DNA from: a virus
IMG/VR virus record: IMGVR_UViG_3300046028_002372
Location: 1-20,213 of that record
Strand: one strand, 5' to 3'
DNA: 20,213 bases
This document shows, one piece after another, positions 3,647-19,976 of this stretch (position 1 is the stretch's first letter; each line of letters starts with the position of its first letter). Below the pieces are notes generated by a model, which made no database searches, was not told the origin of the DNA, and worked only from the letters and a program-made list of their open reading frames with translations. A program made the translations under genes and the position numbers.

Positions 3647-4639
3647 ATGCTAACAAAAACAAAAACAAGATTAACGGATACAAGAGATTCTTTTAAACCT
3701 TTCAACTATCCATGGGCATATGATGCTTGGTTGAAGCATGAACAAGCGCATTGGTTGCATTCAGAAGTACCAATGGCAGAGGATGTTAAAGACTGGAAGA
3801 AGAAACTTACACTCGAAGAAAAACAATTTCTGACAAACATCTTTCGTTTCTTTACACAGGGTGACATCGATGTGGCTGGTGGTTATGTTAAAAACTATCT
3901 ACCTTACTTTCCTCAACCTGAAGTGAGAATGATGTTGATGGGCTTTGCTGCTCGTGAAGCACTACATATCGCTGCATACTCTCATCTGATTGAAACATTG
4001 GGTTTACCAGAATCAACTTACAATCAATTCTTAGAGTATCAGGAGATGAAGGATAAGCATGACTATGTACTAGACCTTTCTAGTCGTAATGGTACTGTCG
4101 CCAGTACTGCTGAGCATATTGCTGTGTTCTCTGCTTTCACTGAAGGTATGCAGTTGTTCTCTTCATTTATTATGTTGCTTAACTTTCCTCGTCATGGCAT
4201 GATGAAAGGTATGGGTCAAATTGTTACATGGTCTATTGCCGATGAAACAATCCATGCTGAGTCAATGATTAAGTTATTCCGTGAGTATGTTAAAGAAAAT
4301 CCTGAGATCTGGAATGATGATTTAAAAGGTAAGATTTATACAATCGCTGAGAAGATGGTAGAGTTAGAAGATAAGTTTATTGATCTTTGCTATCATGCTG
4401 GAGATATGCGTGAACTATCTGCAGAAGATGTCAAGAAGTATATTCGTTACATTGCAGATCGTCGCTTGATTAGTCTCGGAATGAAGGGTATTTTCAAAGT
4501 TAAAAAGAATCCACTACCATGGGTCGAGGAAATGATCAATGCACCAGTACACGGAAATTTCTTTGAGAATCGTGTCACTGATTATGCAAAGGGTGCTTTG
4601 TCTGGCACATGGGGTGATGTTTGGGGTAAGGCAGCATGA
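3647..4639 (+). CDS. nrdB: Class Ia ribonucleotide reductase, beta subunit
   Basis: The 330-aa radical-generating partner of NrdA. All expected metal ligands and the radical tyrosine can be placed by spacing relative to E. coli NrdB: D73 (D84), E104 and H107 (E115, H118), Y111 (Y122), E166 (E204), E200 and H203 (E238, H241). The distances 31, 34 and ExxHxxxY are exactly conserved. A tyrosine at the radical position argues for a normal tyrosyl-radical subunit rather than a tyrosine-less subclass. Its ATG is one base after the nrdA stop, and its own stop overlaps the desaturase ATG as ATGA. Confidence 0.97.
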   Translation: MLTKTKTRLTDTRDSFKPFNYPWAYDAWLKHEQAHWLHSEVPMAEDVKDWKKKLTLEEKQFLTNIFRFFTQGDIDVAGGYVKNYLPYFPQPEVRMMLMGFAAREALHIAAYSHLIETLGLPESTYNQFLEYQEMKDKHDYVLDLSSRNGTVASTAEHIAVFSAFTEGMQLFSSFIMLLNFPRHGMMKGMGQIVTWSIADETIHAESMIKLFREYVKENPEIWNDDLKGKIYTIAEKMVELEDKFIDLCYHAGDMRELSAEDVKKYIRYIADRRLISLGMKGIFKVKKNPLPWVEEMINAPVHGNFFENRVTDYAKGALSGTWGDVWGKAA

Positions 4640-5340
4640 TAGAGTTAATCTATCTGTTGGTAATGACGCACATTACCATTGTGTGCGTCACTCTATATCT
4701 TCATAGAGGACAGACACACAGAGGAATAACTTTTCATCCAGCGGTCTCACACTTCATGCGTTTCTGGTTGTGGCTCACTACTGGTATGGTAACTAAACAG
4801 TGGGTAGCGATACATCGTAAGCACCATAGATTTATTGACACAGAAGGTGATCCACATAGTCCTAAATTAGTTGGTATTAAGAATATATTGTTTGGTGGTG
4901 TCTATTACTATTACCAAGCAGCAAAAGATGCAAGAATGGTAGTTGAGTATGGAGTAGGCACACCAAACGATTGGATTGAACGAAAAGTTTATACGAAACA
5001 TCATTTCTTGGGTGTGTTTTTATTATTGACGATAAATGTTCTACTGTTTGGTTGGATTGGAATACTACTCTGGATGATTCAAATTATTTGGATTCCATTT
5101 TGGGCTGCAGGAGTTATTAACGGATTAGGACATTGGTGGGGATATCGAAACACAGATACTGCCGATACCTCTAGAAACATCTGTAATTTTGCATTCTGGA
5201 TCGGTGGAGAAGAACTTCACAACAATCATCATGCTGAACCAGCAAATCCAAAATTAAGTAGAAAGTGGTGGGAATTTGATATTGGATGGATGTGGTTTAA
5301 AGTACTACAAAAACTAAAACTAGCAGAGACTAAACAATGA
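4636..5340 (+). CDS. Membrane fatty-acid desaturase (acyl-CoA/acyl-lipid delta-9 type)
   Basis: A 234-aa integral membrane di-iron enzyme that inserts a double bond into acyl chains. The three histidine boxes are present: H23-RGQT-H28 (HxxxxH), H60-RK-H63-H64 (HxxHH) and H195-NN-H198-H199 (HxxHH), plus the GHxxGYRN stretch (165-172) typical of delta-9 desaturases. Hydrophobic segments lie around residues 1-20, 38-52 and 125-160. The start overlaps the nrdB stop (ATGA), so the gene is embedded in the nucleotide operon. Such genes are auxiliary metabolic genes in aquatic phages. The substrate (acyl-CoA or membrane lipid) and the electron donor cannot be read from sequence. The family is confident; the role in the host membrane is inference. 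Confidence 0.93.
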   Translation: MIELIYLLVMTHITIVCVTLYLHRGQTHRGITFHPAVSHFMRFWLWLTTGMVTKQWVAIHRKHHRFIDTEGDPHSPKLVGIKNILFGGVYYYYQAAKDARMVVEYGVGTPNDWIERKVYTKHHFLGVFLLLTINVLLFGWIGILLWMIQIIWIPFWAAGVINGLGHWWGYRNTDTADTSRNICNFAFWIGGEELHNNHHAEPANPKLSRKWWEFDIGWMWFKVLQKLKLAETKQ

Positions 5341-14218: not shown

Positions 14219-14469
14219 ATTATGCATTAACACCTGAACAGAAAAAAGATTTGCAAGGTGCTATTCAAGAGATTAGCAACTCAATGATTCGTACTGAGGC
14301 AGAACGAGATCTCATTCGTGAGATCGTCAAGGAACAATCTGATACATTGCAAATTCCAAAGAAAGTTATTTCCAAGATTGCAAAGACGTATCATAAACAG
14401 AATCTTGCACAGGAAGTTGCAGACCACGAGGACTTCGTGGAACTATACGAGAAAATCACATCTAAGTAA
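14215..14469 (+). CDS. dsbA: DsbA-like dsDNA-binding protein
   Basis: 84 aa; the C-terminal half YHKQN...DFVELYEKITSK aligns by eye with the T4 DsbA ending YHKDN...EVVELYDTVFSK (T4 DsbA is 89 aa). T4 DsbA binds double-stranded DNA near late promoters and can enhance late transcription; in T4 dsbA lies beside rnh. Here rnh is found one gene further downstream, which supports the assignment. ATG 14215 overlaps the preceding stop. A hairpin and promoter follow. Confidence 0.75.
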   Translation: MNYALTPEQKKDLQGAIQEISNSMIRTEAERDLIREIVKEQSDTLQIPKKVISKIAKTYHKQNLAQEVADHEDFVELYEKITSK

Positions 14470-14470
14470 T

Positions 14471-14487
14471 CCCTACAACTTGTAGGG
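14471..14487 (+). other. Hairpin preceding the promoter (possible weak terminator)
   Basis: CCCTACA-ACT-TGTAGGG, a perfect 7-bp stem. It has no T-run, so any termination would be weak. The GTAGGG(T)YATT part recurs at 11646 and 18280. Confidence 0.65.
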
Positions 14488-14502
14488 TCATTAAAATAGT
14501 GC

Positions 14503-14531
14503 TTGACAATAATTGCATATTGTGGTATAAT
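14503..14531 (+). promoter_or_regulatory. Perfect-consensus sigma70 promoter
   Basis: TTGACA (14503-14508), 17-nt spacer and TATAAT (14526-14531) are an exact consensus, the strongest promoter in the window. It drives the 371-aa gene, rnh and downstream genes. The AGTGCTTGAC upstream shoulder is shared with 11698 and 18295. Confidence 0.95.
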
Positions 14532-14560: not shown

Positions 14561-15676
14561 ATGGCTGTGAATACTGCAAAGCGACGTGCAAAGAATCAAT
14601 CAATTCTATTGTCACAAAAGAAGTTCGAACCAACAATCGACCAGATTGACTTTACAGTTAGTCTGAGTCGTGCGTTGACATACTACTCTGTCAACACTGG
14701 ATCAAAAGAACAGAAGATGTTTGCGATTGAATTCTTCTCAAAGAAAGAACTCAAGATTGCTAAACAACTCAAGAAACTCCCCGACTACAAATTTGCGACA
14801 TTTGGATCGTTGTGTCGTCTCATGTCAAATGAACAGACAGACTTGAAACAGTTGTCTTCATACAGCCCATTCTTTACGAATAAGTTAAAAGATTTATTGG
14901 AAGACGCCAAGAAATATACCGAAGAAGTTGAGATTGTGAAAGCACCAACCAATGTCATTAGCATTCAAGAGCGAATGGAAGACAAAGCCAGAGAACATGC
15001 GGGTGAATTCGAAGGTGCAATTGATGAGTGGATTATTACACGAGGTAAGAGTAACTTCTCTGCCAAGAACTATCTACTGAAGAACGAAGTTGGTGCGCCA
15101 ATTGCTAAACGAATCGGTGAATTGTTCGTTGTGACAGCACAAGAATTACGAGAAGCACTTGATGGCGATGATGAACAACTCACTGAGGGTTACTCATACC
15201 TGACACGTAGAGAACTAAAGAAGTTTGCTGAATTTGTTGAGACTATCATTGCTGACTGTCAACAACAGGTGCAGACTGCTAAAGCGAATCGTGCACCACG
15301 TAAGCGTAAGCCACAACCAGCAAGCAAAGTGGTTGCCAAGATGAAGTATATGAAAGAGTTTGCTGAGTTGAATCTTAAGTCAATCAAACCAGAGACGATT
15401 GTTGGATCGTCTGAGGTATGGGTATACAATACTAAGTATCGCAAGGTAACTGTGTACAAAGCAATCAATGATGTGCTCACAGTCAAGGGTACTACAATTA
15501 TTGGATTCGATGTGAAAGAATCCAAGACACAGATGCTGCGTAAGCCAGATGTATTCTTTAAGGGATTAACATTGGGTAAGCGTCCATTGAATGGTGCAAT
15601 GAAGCCACTGACCACTACGGTAACTGTACCAAATGGTCGTGTCAATGAAGAATGTATTTTGCTGGGAGCATTTTAA
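14561..15676 (+). CDS. Conserved-looking hypothetical protein (371 aa)
   Basis: A large protein I do not recognise. The N terminus is basic (AKRRAKNQSILLSQKK). Residues about 150-245 are helical and charged, a lysine/arginine/proline hinge (RAPRKRKPQPASK) lies near 245-258, and the C-terminal part is beta-rich (VWVYNTKYRKVTVYKAIN...). The basic ends suggest nucleic-acid binding. It is driven by the consensus promoter at 14503 and sits between dsbA-like and rnh, where T4 has transcription and replication genes. It is not T4 gp33 or gp59 by length or sequence. Similar proteins occur in aquatic T4-like phages as I recall. Confidence 0.75.
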   Translation: MAVNTAKRRAKNQSILLSQKKFEPTIDQIDFTVSLSRALTYYSVNTGSKEQKMFAIEFFSKKELKIAKQLKKLPDYKFATFGSLCRLMSNEQTDLKQLSSYSPFFTNKLKDLLEDAKKYTEEVEIVKAPTNVISIQERMEDKAREHAGEFEGAIDEWIITRGKSNFSAKNYLLKNEVGAPIAKRIGELFVVTAQELREALDGDDEQLTEGYSYLTRRELKKFAEFVETIIADCQQQVQTAKANRAPRKRKPQPASKVVAKMKYMKEFAELNLKSIKPETIVGSSEVWVYNTKYRKVTVYKAINDVLTVKGTTIIGFDVKESKTQMLRKPDVFFKGLTLGKRPLNGAMKPLTTTVTVPNGRVNEECILLGAF

Positions 15677-17763: not shown

Positions 17764-18206
17764 AACAAAAGTGGGTTGATGCATTTATGGACACTGCGGA
17801 GAGATTCGCCCAGTTGTCCAGTGCAGTTAGATTACAGGTCGGTGCGGTAGTTGTTAAAGACAATCGTATCATCTCGATTGGCTATAATGGTATGCCTTCT
17901 GGATGGACAAACGAATGTGAAGAAGAAATTGGTCATGTACTAGATGAATCTGGTAACATCGTTGAGACCAGAACAAAAACAAAAGATGAGGTTATACATG
18001 CTGAAGCAAATGCTATTATCAAACTTGCACGTGATGGTGAATCAGGCAATGGCTCCAGTTTATTCTGTACTCATGCTCCTTGCATTCATTGCGCTAAGTT
18101 AATTCATGGTGCAGGAATAGAACATGTTTACTTTAGGGAATCATATCGAGATGAACTTGGTATTGATTTTCTAGAGAAATGCAAAATAAGAGTTGAAAAA
18201 GTATAA
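17760..18206 (+). CDS. cd: dCMP deaminase
   Basis: 148 aa. Converts dCMP to dUMP, the substrate for ThyX. Zinc and catalytic motifs are H80-A-E82 and P107-C108-I-H-C111 (PCxxC), the standard cytidine-deaminase core, with the N-terminal VGAVVVKDNRIISIGYNGMPSGW typical of the dCMP enzyme. T4 cd is 193 aa, so this is a compact form. ATG overlaps the previous stop. Confidence 0.94.
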   Translation: MKQKWVDAFMDTAERFAQLSSAVRLQVGAVVVKDNRIISIGYNGMPSGWTNECEEEIGHVLDESGNIVETRTKTKDEVIHAEANAIIKLARDGESGNGSSLFCTHAPCIHCAKLIHGAGIEHVYFRESYRDELGIDFLEKCKIRVEKV

Positions 18207-18260: not shown

Positions 18261-18293
18261 CTGAAAAACCTTACATGTCGTAGGGTTATTCAG
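18261..18293 (+). other. Hairpin in front of the tRNA-region promoter
   Basis: AACCTTAC (18267-18274) pairs with GTAGGGTT (18280-18287), one G-T wobble, loop ATGTC; CTGAA and TTCAG (18261-18265, 18289-18293) extend the base. No T-run follows. Third copy of the hairpin-plus-promoter arrangement. Confidence 0.65.
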
Positions 18294-18300
18294 ATAGTGC

Positions 18301-18329
18301 TTGACAAATAATCAAAGGTGTAGTAGAAT
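18301..18329 (+). promoter_or_regulatory. sigma70-like promoter of the tRNA-array leader
   Basis: TTGACA (18301-18306), 17-nt spacer, TAGAAT (18324-18329). It follows ATAGTGC, as at 14503. Its predicted start is 18336, which is an ATG. Confidence 0.8.
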
Positions 18330-18335
18330 TCAATC

Positions 18336-18455
18336 ATGAACTTAAGAAATATATCCTCGCAGAAACATCTCCCGCTATTAAGTGGCTGGACATGCTCACG
18401 CACTGCAGTTGGATATAATGCGTTTGAGATTGATAGTGAGGGTTTTGGAAACTAG
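18336..18455 (+). CDS. Possible 39-aa leader peptide
   Basis: An open frame of 39 codons beginning at the predicted transcription start and ending at TAG (18453-18455), with no Shine-Dalgarno. Its last codons overlap the 5' arm (18438-18448) of a hairpin that competes with the terminator downstream, the usual position of a leader peptide in an attenuator. It has five leucines and several serines. It may instead be part of a non-coding RNA. Confidence 0.35.
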   Translation: MNLRNISSQKHLPLLSGWTCSRTAVGYNAFEIDSEGFGN

Positions 18456-18490
18456 ATTAGACAACAAACAGTCTACTTCCCAAAACCCTC
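18438..18490 (+). promoter_or_regulatory. Antiterminator-like hairpin
   Basis: GAGGGTTTTGG (18438-18448) is perfectly complementary over 11 bp to 18480-18490, with an inner TAGAC/GTCTA stem (18458-18462, 18471-18475). The 3' arm is also the 5' arm of the terminator at 18482, so the two cannot form together. It may be an attenuator or part of a folded small RNA. Confidence 0.6.
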
Positions 18491-18516
18491 TGAGATGAAA
18501 GTCCAGAGGGTTTTTT
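18482..18516 (+). terminator. Rho-independent terminator before the tRNA array
   Basis: AAAACCCTCTG (18482-18492) pairs with CAGAGGGTTTT (18504-18514) around an 11-nt loop, and the T-run reaches 18516. It lies 54 bases before the first tRNA. With the promoter at 18301 it bounds a ~180-nt transcript. Confidence 0.92.
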
Positions 18517-18569
18517 GTTTTATAGCCATCGTGCTAGTAATATTGTTCTTTTACAATTCAGGATTCTGT

Positions 18570-18643
18570 TGGGGGTTGGTGTAGTGGTAGCACACTTGAC
18601 TTTGACTCAAGTAGTACAAGTTCGATTCTTGTATCCCCTGCCA
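18570..18643 (+). tRNA. tRNA-Gln(TTG)
   Basis: 74 nt with encoded CCA. Anticodon stem CTTGA/TCAAG around CTTTGAC places TTG at 34-36. The acceptor stem TGGGGGT/ATCCCCT has a T1-T72 mismatch and a G-T pair. Discriminator G, as in bacterial Gln tRNAs. Confidence 0.92.
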
Positions 18644-18682
18644 AACAAATGCGCATTGCGTAGAGATAGTGCTCATCTGTTT

Positions 18683-18756
18683 GGGAGTATAACTTAATGG
18701 TAAAGTAGCTGGCTTTTAACCAGCAAATCAGAGTTCAATTCTCTGTGCTCCTACCA
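18683..18756 (+). tRNA. tRNA-Lys(TTT)
   Basis: 74 nt, encoded CCA, anticodon stem GCTGG/CCAGC with loop CTTTTAA. Acceptor GGGAGTA/TGCTCCT with wobble at 1-72 and 6-67. A 19-nt D-arm block is identical to that of tRNA-His. Confidence 0.94.
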
Positions 18757-18768
18757 GTGTTCTTTGGT

Positions 18769-18842
18769 GTGACTATAACTTAATGGTAAAGTCGTGGATT
18801 GTGATTCCGCTTATCTGGGTTCAATTCCCAGTAGTCACCCCA
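18769..18842 (+). tRNA. tRNA-His(GTG)
   Basis: 74 nt, encoded CCA. Perfect acceptor GTGACTA/TAGTCAC, discriminator C as expected for His. Loop TTGTGAT gives GTG. The base before G1 is T, so the G-1 of mature tRNA-His would need enzymatic addition. Confidence 0.92.
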
Positions 18843-18852
18843 AAGAATACTT

Positions 18853-18928
18853 GCTGCTTTAGCTGATGTGGTCATAGCAGGGGATTGAAGATCCTCGGAA
18901 AGTAGTTCGATTCTACTAGGCAGCACCA
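18853..18928 (+). tRNA. tRNA-Phe(GAA)
   Basis: 76 nt, encoded CCA, acceptor GCTGCTT/AGGCAGC, loop TTGAAGA with anticodon GAA, T-arm AGTAG/CTACT. Confidence 0.92.
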
Positions 18929-18935
18929 AGATTAT

Positions 18936-19010
18936 TCCCGATTAGCTCAGCGGTAGAGCACTCGCTTGATAAGCGATAGGTCAGTGATTCGAATTCACTA
19001 TTGGGAACCA
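18936..19010 (+). tRNA. tRNA-Ile(GAT)
   Basis: 75 nt, encoded CCA, acceptor TCCCGAT/ATTGGGA, loop TTGATAA with anticodon GAT. The outermost anticodon-stem pair is a C-T mismatch. Confidence 0.93.
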
Positions 19011-19017
19011 AAGTTAC

Positions 19018-19109
19018 GGAAGATAATGCAGCGGGGTTGGTCCTGCGACCAGCCTTGAAAACTGGGTTCTGAGAAATCGGATGGGGTTCGACTCCTCTGT
19101 CTTCCGCCA
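19018..19109 (+). tRNA. tRNA-Ser(TGA)
   Basis: 92 nt with a long variable arm typical of Ser. Acceptor GGAAGAT/GTCTTCC, discriminator G, loop CTTGAAA gives TGA; the innermost anticodon-stem pair is mismatched. Confidence 0.92.
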
Positions 19110-19117
19110 TATTATGT

Positions 19118-19192
19118 GCCTCGTTATTTCAGTGGTAGAATGTCTCCTTTACACGGAGAAGGTCGGCAGTTCGAATCTGTCACGAGGTACCA
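19118..19192 (+). tRNA. tRNA-Val(TAC)
   Basis: 75 nt, encoded CCA, acceptor GCCTCGT/ACGAGGT, anticodon stem TCTCC/GGAGA with loop TTTACAC. Confidence 0.94.
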
Positions 19193-19198
19193 AGTTTT

Positions 19199-19273
19199 GC
19201 GTCATTAGTTCAACGGATAGAATTAGAGTCTTCGAAACTCAGGATGGTGGTTCGATTCCATCATGGCGCACCA
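19199..19273 (+). tRNA. tRNA-Arg(TCG)
   Basis: 75 nt, encoded CCA, acceptor GCGTCAT/ATGGCGC, loop CTTCGAA gives TCG. The D-loop segment TTCAACGGATAG also occurs in the second Arg tRNA. Confidence 0.92.
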
Positions 19274-19278
19274 AGTTA

Positions 19279-19368
19279 GGAAGATGGGCAGGATGGTAAT
19301 GCAGCAGTTTGCTAAACTGTAGATCGTAGGAATATGGTCAGTGAGTTCGACTCTCACATCTTCCACCA
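19279..19368 (+). tRNA. tRNA-Ser(GCT)
   Basis: 90 nt with long variable arm, acceptor GGAAGAT/ATCTTCC identical at the 5' side to the other Ser tRNA, loop TTGCTAA gives GCT. Confidence 0.92.
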
Positions 19369-19373
19369 GTATT

Positions 19374-19448
19374 GGGCTGGTAGCTTAATGGTAAAGCAGT
19401 GAACTCATAATTCATTGAGTCTGTGTTCAATTCACAGTCAGCCCACCA
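19374..19448 (+). tRNA. tRNA with CAT anticodon (Met or Ile2)
   Basis: 75 nt, encoded CCA, acceptor GGGCTGG/TCAGCCC, loop CTCATAA gives CAT. Elongator Met or, if the C is lysidinylated, Ile(AUA) as for the T4 CAT tRNA; sequence alone does not settle this. It does not look like an initiator, as the first pair is G-C. Confidence 0.9.
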
Positions 19449-19477
19449 TTGACTTGCAAGATTGTTTGATGTATAAT
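19449..19477 (+). promoter_or_regulatory. Promoter inside the tRNA array, before tRNA-Leu
   Basis: TTGACT (19449-19454), 17-nt spacer, TATAAT (19472-19477). Immediately follows the CCA of the CAT tRNA. Nearly identical to the promoter at 19739 (TTGACTTGYAAGA, then TTTGATGTATAATAG). Confidence 0.85.
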
Positions 19478-19486
19478 AGAGTTATT

Positions 19487-19570
19487 GCGAGTGTGGTGGA
19501 ATGGTATACACATCAGACTTAAAATCTGACGCTTAATTGATTGAGGGTTCAAGTCCCTCCACTCGTACCA
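19487..19570 (+). tRNA. tRNA-Leu(TAA)
   Basis: 84 nt with long variable arm, acceptor GCGAGTG/CACTCGT, anticodon stem TCAGA/TCTGA with loop CTTAAAA. First gene after the internal promoter. Confidence 0.94.
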
Positions 19571-19572
19571 AT

Positions 19573-19647
19573 ACGGCATTCGTTCAACGGATAGGACATG
19601 GTTCTTCTAAAGCCAGAATGGTGGTTCGATTCCTCCATGCCGTGCCA
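19573..19647 (+). tRNA. tRNA-Arg(TCT)
   Basis: 75 nt, perfect acceptor ACGGCAT/ATGCCGT, discriminator G, loop CTTCTAA gives TCT. Confidence 0.93.
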
Positions 19648-19656
19648 GAGATAAAT

Positions 19657-19730
19657 GTAGGTGGAGCCAGTTGGACAGGCACTGGATTGCAAACCCATGG
19701 AAGTGAGTTCGATTCTCACCACCTACTCCA
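19657..19730 (+). tRNA. tRNA-Cys(GCA)
   Basis: 74 nt, perfect acceptor GTAGGTG/CACCTAC, discriminator T as in Cys tRNAs, loop TTGCAAA gives GCA. The anticodon stem has mismatches at both ends, leaving a 3-bp TGG/CCA core, so folding may be weak. Confidence 0.85.
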
Positions 19731-19738
19731 GATAGTTG

Positions 19739-19767
19739 TTGACTTGTAAGAAGTTTTGATGTATAAT
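19739..19767 (+). promoter_or_regulatory. Second promoter inside the tRNA array
   Basis: TTGACT (19739-19744), 17-nt spacer, TATAAT (19762-19767); predicted start 19774. Drives a structured non-tRNA element and tRNA-Glu. Confidence 0.85.
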
Positions 19768-19773
19768 AGTTGT

Positions 19774-19901
19774 TCTTCAAAAGTCCACTCTAAATCTGCG
19801 GTAAATACGCAGTGTGTGGCAGGGATGGCTTGATTGTTGCAACTCGCCTACAATCTCCCATGCAAGCAAGTTTGGTAGTTCTTGATAAAAACTACCACTA
19901 T
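19774..19901 (+). ncRNA. Structured non-tRNA element (three hairpins)
   Basis: From the predicted start come three hairpins in a row: CCAC/GTGG (19785-19788, 19816-19819) enclosing CTGCG/CGCAG (19796-19800, 19808-19812); GGGA+GATTGT with ACAATC+TCCC (19822-19837, 19850-19859), bulged on the 5' side; and TGGTAGTT/AACTACCA (19873-19880, 19890-19897). No tRNA, ORF or terminator is visible. T4 likewise carries stable non-tRNA RNAs (C and D) in its tRNA array, an analogy rather than a homology claim. Confidence 0.5.
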
Positions 19902-19976
19902 GCACTGTTCGTCTATCGGTTAGGACATGCGGTTTTCATCCGCATAAGAGGAGTTCGATTCTCCTATCGAGTACCA
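19902..19976 (+). tRNA. tRNA-Glu(TTC) with weak acceptor stem
   Basis: 75 nt, encoded CCA, anticodon stem TGCGG/CCGCA with loop TTTTCAT, T-arm AGGAG/CTCCT. The acceptor GCACTGT/ATCGAGT has two mismatches (3-70, 5-68) and two G-T pairs, so the gene may be decayed or its 5' end may be processed unusually. Confidence 0.8.

Follow-up and report, generated by a model that had tools for sequence, protein, structure and literature searches.

The window, by which we mean the whole 20,213-base stretch of DNA that was analysed, is a phage fragment whose genes include ThyX, the large and small chains of ribonucleotide reductase, a T4-type RNase H and dCMP deaminase. The dCMP deaminase gene ends at 18206, a tRNA array starts at 18570, and a leader lies between them (Table 1). 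A T4-type gp23 major capsid protein was present in seven of the eight tested records sharing this leader, on contigs of ~160–170 kb, indicating that the leader-sharing group is T4-like. The closest cultured capsid proteins, at 64–69% identity, belong to Pelagibacter, Methylophilales, Stenotrophomonas and cyanobacterial phages. Scanning GTDB genomes with two leader patterns gave zero matches.

A gap in the array at 19018–19109 holds a gene that resembles tRNA-Ser(UGA), has a long variable arm and was missed by both ARAGORN and Rfam; tRNA-Ser(UGA) is called within the arrays of relatives such as L003 and L005.

Table 1. Features of the leader and the downstream array, in window coordinates.
Feature	Position	Strand	Description	Support
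Promoter	18301–18329	+	TTGACA (18301–18306), 17-bp spacer, TAGAAT (18324–18329)	11/12 consensus matches
Leader ORF	18336–18455	+	leaderless, 39 codons, MNLRNISSQKHLPLLSGWTCSRTAVGYNAFEIDSEGFGN, all 20 amino acids	distinct indels 28/28 in frame
Hairpin A	18372–18385	+	short, within the ORF; CCGCT ATTA AGTGG	92.5% of cells paired; covariation 0/500 shuffles
Hairpin B (candidate)	18395–18428	+	weaker; CTCACGC with GCG..TGAG	86% paired, weak covariation
Segment 2	18438–18458	+	antiterminator 5' arm, holds the stop codon	folding and covariation
Segment 3	18470–18490	+	antiterminator 3' arm, overlaps the terminator 5' arm	folding and covariation
Intrinsic terminator (segments 3:4)	18482–18516	+	T-tract 18511–18516	70/70 relatives; 64 double-change cells
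boxA-like element	18544–18558	+	TGTTCTTTTACAATT, between the terminator and the first tRNA	family consensus TGTTCTTTAAAAATT; 69/72 leaders match at least 12/15
tRNA array	18570–19973	+	first gene tRNA-Gln(UUG)	ARAGORN 12 tRNAs; Rfam 13 tRNAs

The initial annotation had placed here a promoter and a 39-codon ORF with its ATG at the predicted +1 and its stop at 18453, and all of these details are correct in the window: the ATG (18336–18338) stands six bases past the -10 hexamer, and the stop codon is a TAG (18453–18455). The antiterminator is formed by GAGGGTTTTGG (18438–18448) and CCAAAACCCTC (18480–18490), with weaker pairs extending the helix through the stop codon, and folds at -20.9 kcal/mol; the terminator fold within 18480–18516 reaches -18.9 kcal/mol. 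Both structures need 18482–18490 and are thus mutually exclusive. The whole leader folds 3.0 standard deviations better than dinucleotide shuffles. A generic terminator scan of the window missed the leader terminator, which the fold and the comparative data show clearly. Rfam scans of the leader returned only tRNAs at the gathering score, with no match to the T-box covariance model, and an E-value search gave weak, unrelated matches; the leader peptide had no match in Pfam or PHROGs.

Conservation of the hairpins and the reading frame

Relatives were sought in viral contigs using dCMP deaminase and a short DNA pattern drawn from the antiterminator arm, a query chosen because the leader peptide alignment was too variable. 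An nhmmer search recovered 103 loci with the leader (79 distinct, 74 full length). A tRNA comes next in all 69 loci where a downstream tRNA call could be checked, in line with the earlier placing of tRNAs directly 3' of the leader: tRNA-Gln(UUG) in 68 and tRNA-Arg in one (L084), with a gap from terminator to tRNA that is often 46–50 nt. Among 50,697 phage records, neither tblastn nor blastn revealed a convincing relative of the leader, the matches being tRNAs or chance.

Structure tests were performed on an alignment of 70 distinct leaders, and both hairpins fold in all 70, with energies of about -19 kcal/mol or better for the antiterminator and about -15 kcal/mol or better for the terminator. 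In the antiterminator, 44 cells are changed on both sides, a number reached by none of 500 shuffles; the terminator has 64 such double-change cells (0/500). The antiterminator register is best at slide 0, and sliding it by a single column cuts the paired cells from 88% to 62%. Its arms also change length together by one base, as in GGGTTTGG with CCAAACCC in L003, and the third base of the stop codon covaries with its partner in the helix (A-U in 38 sequences, G-C in 26). RNAalifold alone picked the antiterminator as the consensus structure. The competing pairs of 18438–18490 and 18482–18514 put forward by the initial annotation, together with the covariation in homologous leaders by which it proposed to check them, are therefore borne out by the folds and the compensatory changes in both hairpins; conservation in 70 distinct relatives excludes chance.

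Hairpin A, of 5 bp, likewise carries double changes, for example CCACT/AGTGG to CCGTT/AACGG (0/500 shuffles); its role is inferred, and it could possibly make RNA polymerase pause and so give the ribosome time to catch up. The covariation of hairpin B is weak, with 17 of 500 shuffles reaching it. A segment 1, that is, an upstream partner for segment 2, was sought in the leaders, where such pairing proved no better than in codon-shuffled leaders.

The leader reading frame is conserved, as the earlier reading would have it. Every distinct gap run in the ORF (28/28) is a multiple of three, as against 3 of 12 in the loop after the stop, and the ORF is open in 70/70 relatives, from which translation is inferred. 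Of 72 relatives, 64 have a -10 hexamer ending 6–10 nt before the ATG, at a distance of 6 or 7 nt in 62, and from this spacing the ORF should start no more than a base or two from the first base of the transcript. Six other leaders have a Shine-Dalgarno-like AAGGA 5' of the ATG instead; that two different start routes both preserve translation argues that translation matters. Lineages with a longer 5' UTR (L043, L044, L027 and L035) carry a small hairpin, such as GATAAG...CTTATC, before the AAGGA and the leader ATG.

The stop codon is held in place relative to segment 2, lying 13 nt from its GGG in 55 of 70 leaders and 16–19 nt in the others, with TAA, TAG and TGA all in use. The C-terminal FGK of the peptide is lost in eight sequences, mostly via frame changes, and the pairing is kept, suggesting that in these eight selection acts on the RNA and not on the end of the peptide.

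Selection for a complete amino-acid set

The window peptide contains all 20 amino acids within 39 residues. All 69 distinct ORFs of the family (36–46 codons) hold 19 or 20 amino acids, with a mean of 19.70; 40-codon windows of phage genes, used as a control, have a mean of 16.1, and at this length the chance of 20 is ~0.006 and that of at least 19 is ~0.05. Shuffling residues within alignment columns lowered the mean from 19.68 to 18.36 ± 0.10 (0/2000), and for 20 representatives below 70% identity the observed 19.70 compared with 18.33 ± 0.18 in the column shuffle (0/5000). Since column shuffles lower the mean, one conserved peptide is not a simple explanation of the full set.

Individual residues show the same behaviour among 63 peptides: Gln and His occur in all of them (column expectation 48 and 55, respectively), Tyr also in 63 (expectation 45) and Cys in 59 (expectation 45), and where Cys is lost from the WTC position, a Cys turns up near the N-terminus. 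Val is missing in 15 of the 63. The last new residue to appear is Asp in 65 of 69 ORFs; in almost every ORF it is placed 7–8 nt 5' of the segment 2 GGG, and no further amino acid is added later.

When Leu, Ser, Arg and Ile were split by codon family, the leaders contained 23.46 of 24 classes, compared with 22.13 ± 0.09 in synonymous draws from the window codon usage, and ATA was present in 63 of 69 leaders against 22 expected. In the representatives this isoacceptor signal was not significant when codons were shuffled within the same amino acid and column. Selection for a complete set is a firm claim for amino acids and a weaker one for isoacceptors. The use of rare codons was weighed as the sole signal and rejected (P about 0.01 for the window), as the complete amino-acid set accounts for more.

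Scanning for the boxA-like sequence that lies 3' of the leader led to further contigs with tRNA arrays, where unrelated short ORFs with all 20 amino acids are followed by a terminator, for example MTNFKHISFTLQPEYRTINCGDSSWAPTGFCVKREN (L210), MLSLSFKSQHEYRTISSPNCADMPWLVDRGFV (L241, 32 residues) and MLLISKPLHCESNYIGRQPVEAFARTNSWDEFTEGRDS (L186). Most of the cases inspected again show a competing hairpin where the ORF ends. Under a rule blind to composition, which takes the longest ATG ORF of 30–46 codons, 87 of the 92 ORFs before an array and terminator reached at least 19 amino acids, and 61 of them had the full 20; among 6,433 other short ORFs, these proportions were 2.5% and 0.4%. The positive ORFs form nine clusters at 38% identity. 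Their peptides cannot be aligned by eye, and the clusters may share remote ancestry, a possibility raised by several of them ending in GGGTTTTG arms.

Among terminators that follow a short ORF, the ORF had at least 19 amino acids for 119 of 128 located less than 350 nt before a tRNA array, versus 1 of 97 located away from tRNAs; at loci without homology to the window leader, the figure was 36 of 44. Our shuffle tests ignore phylogeny, and common descent alone is an unlikely cause of these patterns, given the diversity between clusters and the matched terminator control. A related-looking attenuator in L012 (4697–4846) precedes an array of tRNA-Met, Leu and Ser; only 16 amino acids occur in its 30-residue peptide, and it may be a degenerate or specialised form. 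No short ORF with at least 19 amino acids plus a terminator was found in the stretches around the tRNA genes of T4 and of a Vibrio phage, in the tRNA-rich region of Stenotrophomonas phage DLP6, or in the KVP40 stretch around its tRNA genes, which stopped short of the array start; a partial stretch of S-CRM01, without annotated tRNAs, was uninformative.

Proposed attenuation and its alternatives

We consider it likely, in the absence of expression data, that the leader is a cis-acting, ribosome-mediated transcription attenuator through which the phage tRNA array responds to a shortage of any aminoacyl-tRNA. RNA polymerase would start at about 18336, and a ribosome would load on the leaderless ATG. 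With all tRNAs available, the ribosome would reach the stop at 18453 and cover segment 2, leaving segments 3 and 4 to pair and to terminate transcription before the tRNAs. If any aminoacyl-tRNA were missing, a stall upstream would let segments 2 and 3 pair, blocking the terminator, and the polymerase reading through would meet the boxA-like site and then transcribe the array. Both the co-transcriptional kinetics and the polarity of this response are inferred, as is regulation by leader translation itself. With all amino acids present, and with Leu, Ser, Arg and Ile often represented by both of their codon families, the leader would sense the loss of almost any tRNA, for instance through cleavage by a host anticodon nuclease; the signal acting during infection is an inference as well.

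In a masking model, the RNA ahead of the ribosome was folded up to just before the 3' arm of the terminator. With the front edge of the ribosome at or before 18440, the antiterminator formed in 70/70 leaders, and with the edge at or beyond 18442, segment 3 was free in 70/70. On this model, a ribosome at the stop permits the terminator and a stall anywhere within roughly the first 31 codons allows read-through, in agreement with the proposal of the initial annotation that a ribosome stopping at 18453 covers the antiterminator arm; the nearly fixed position of the stop in relatives points the same way. By a static footprint, the Asp codon is 3–4 nt too far downstream for sensing and 17–19 amino acids fall in the strict sensing zone; the real ribosome edge may differ from this footprint by a few bases. 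The further suggestion of the initial annotation, that a lack of tRNAs might raise their expression, gains strength from the ORF with all 20 amino acids, with no experimental data on regulation.

Alternatively, the leader could be a small transcription unit that is separate from the array and has no part in its regulation, giving either a ~180-nt small RNA or an mRNA that ends at its own terminator. It does have its own promoter and strong terminator, and a second promoter is predicted between the terminator and the tRNAs in 28 of 71 relatives, where an attenuator can only add to a basal level. Yet neither a conserved frame nor a stop codon held in place within a competing helix is required of a free RNA, which also has no need of a complete amino-acid set, and the unit stands directly before a tRNA at every checkable locus, so that we regard this explanation as very unlikely.

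The leader might also sense translation initiation or ribosome supply, with few active ribosomes leaving it untranslated and the antiterminator forming by default. The leaderless start in 64 of 72 relatives is compatible with such a sensor, and without a conserved segment 1 to sequester segment 2, an untranslated leader should indeed read through. This would, however, leave the need for every amino acid in the ORF unexplained, and as the sole function we give it little credence; initiation sensing may act in addition to amino-acid sensing.

We attach slightly less weight still to an attenuator with a single signal, be it a particular amino acid or tRNA (Trp, Arg or Pro, for instance) or a small molecule acting via nascent-peptide arrest. 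Within the window family, the TGG, CGC and CCN codons hardly vary, but there is no run of a single codon, unrelated leaders lack the TGG/CGC/CCN core, and the complete set is maintained as residues change position. That the 36–46-residue peptide is itself the product, for example an anti-host factor whose mRNA the hairpins merely end, is scarcely credible: its middle is conserved, with invariant Met, Pro, Trp and Arg, but the unrelated peptides of other lineages share with it only their place and the complete amino-acid set, its C-terminus is altered by frameshift in the sequences described above with the pairing kept, and neither Pfam nor PHROGs offers a match.

Beyond the window, we judge it probable that attenuators of the preferred, aminoacyl-tRNA-sensing kind form a broader class of "roll-call" attenuators: phage leader peptides of at least nine dissimilar clusters, selected to include each of the amino acids along with most tRNA classes, in which loss of any tRNA, such as by host tRNase attack in infection, switches the array on.

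Two strong promoter-like sites (19449–19477 and 19739–19767, 11/12 matches each) lie inside the tRNA array of the window, and distal tRNAs may escape the attenuator through them.

Known systems and further elements of the window

The leader shares with enterobacterial trp- and his-type attenuators a short leader ORF whose stop codon falls at a competing segment, a choice between antiterminator and terminator structures, and the logic of a stalled versus a terminating ribosome. The trp-type geometry assigned by the initial annotation is thus retained for the competing hairpins and the stop within the antiterminator; it does not extend to the rest, because the phage leader has no run of a single codon, no conserved segment 1 and a leaderless ORF, and a tRNA array lies downstream instead of a biosynthetic operon. 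The thr (Thr/Ile) and ilvGMEDA (Leu/Val/Ile) leaders also answer several amino acids with a single leader, but they sense two or three, whereas the phage leader covers 19–20, usually with few codons for each. In T-box riboswitches, tRNA charging likewise controls transcription termination; these bind one uncharged tRNA directly and without a ribosome, in contrast to sensing via an ORF and a ribosome as proposed here.

In rRNA operons, boxA recruits NusB/S10 against Rho. The element in the phage leader, which we take to resemble the rrn boxA in the absence of NusB/S10 binding data, similarly precedes an untranslated stable-RNA operon; unlike in rRNA operons, it follows the terminator of an attenuator and precedes tRNAs, and its function is inferred.

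Ribosome-mediated attenuation is well known, and we found no precedent in Rfam, Pfam, PHROGs or the searchable literature, which barely covers subscription journals, for a leader with all amino acids, a leaderless three-segment layout or a phage tRNA array under attenuator control. The reason for tRNA arrays in phages and the timing of their expression have been debated for decades, and the arrays have been proposed as a counter-defence against tRNA-cleaving host systems (PMC10264068). That proposal would explain why a phage needs tRNAs when those of the host are depleted, and it fits the attenuator reading; the work addresses tRNA sequences, and its abstract presents no regulatory switch for the array (PMC10264068).

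If the attenuator reading is true, phage tRNAs would be an induced emergency supply and not a constant codon supplement, and the tRNA-defence hypothesis would gain a direct test. Ribosome-mediated attenuation, known for one to three amino acids, would be extended to almost the full twenty. Such switches could be sought elsewhere by a simple sequence signature, a terminator preceded by a short ORF in which all 20 amino acids occur, and the leader would provide a ready-made reporter for tRNA shortage.

Two further elements of the window were observed. A short hairpin of the GTAGGGT type joined to a TTGACA promoter occurs both before the leader (18266–18312) and before the ORF at 14561 (14468–14513), the two copies sharing 81% identity; similar modules are also located 3' of the terminator in some relatives, and the combination may be a recurrent terminator-plus-promoter cassette. 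A protein with a fatty acid desaturase domain (Pfam PF00487), encoded at 4636–5340, adjoins the phage ribonucleotide reductase.
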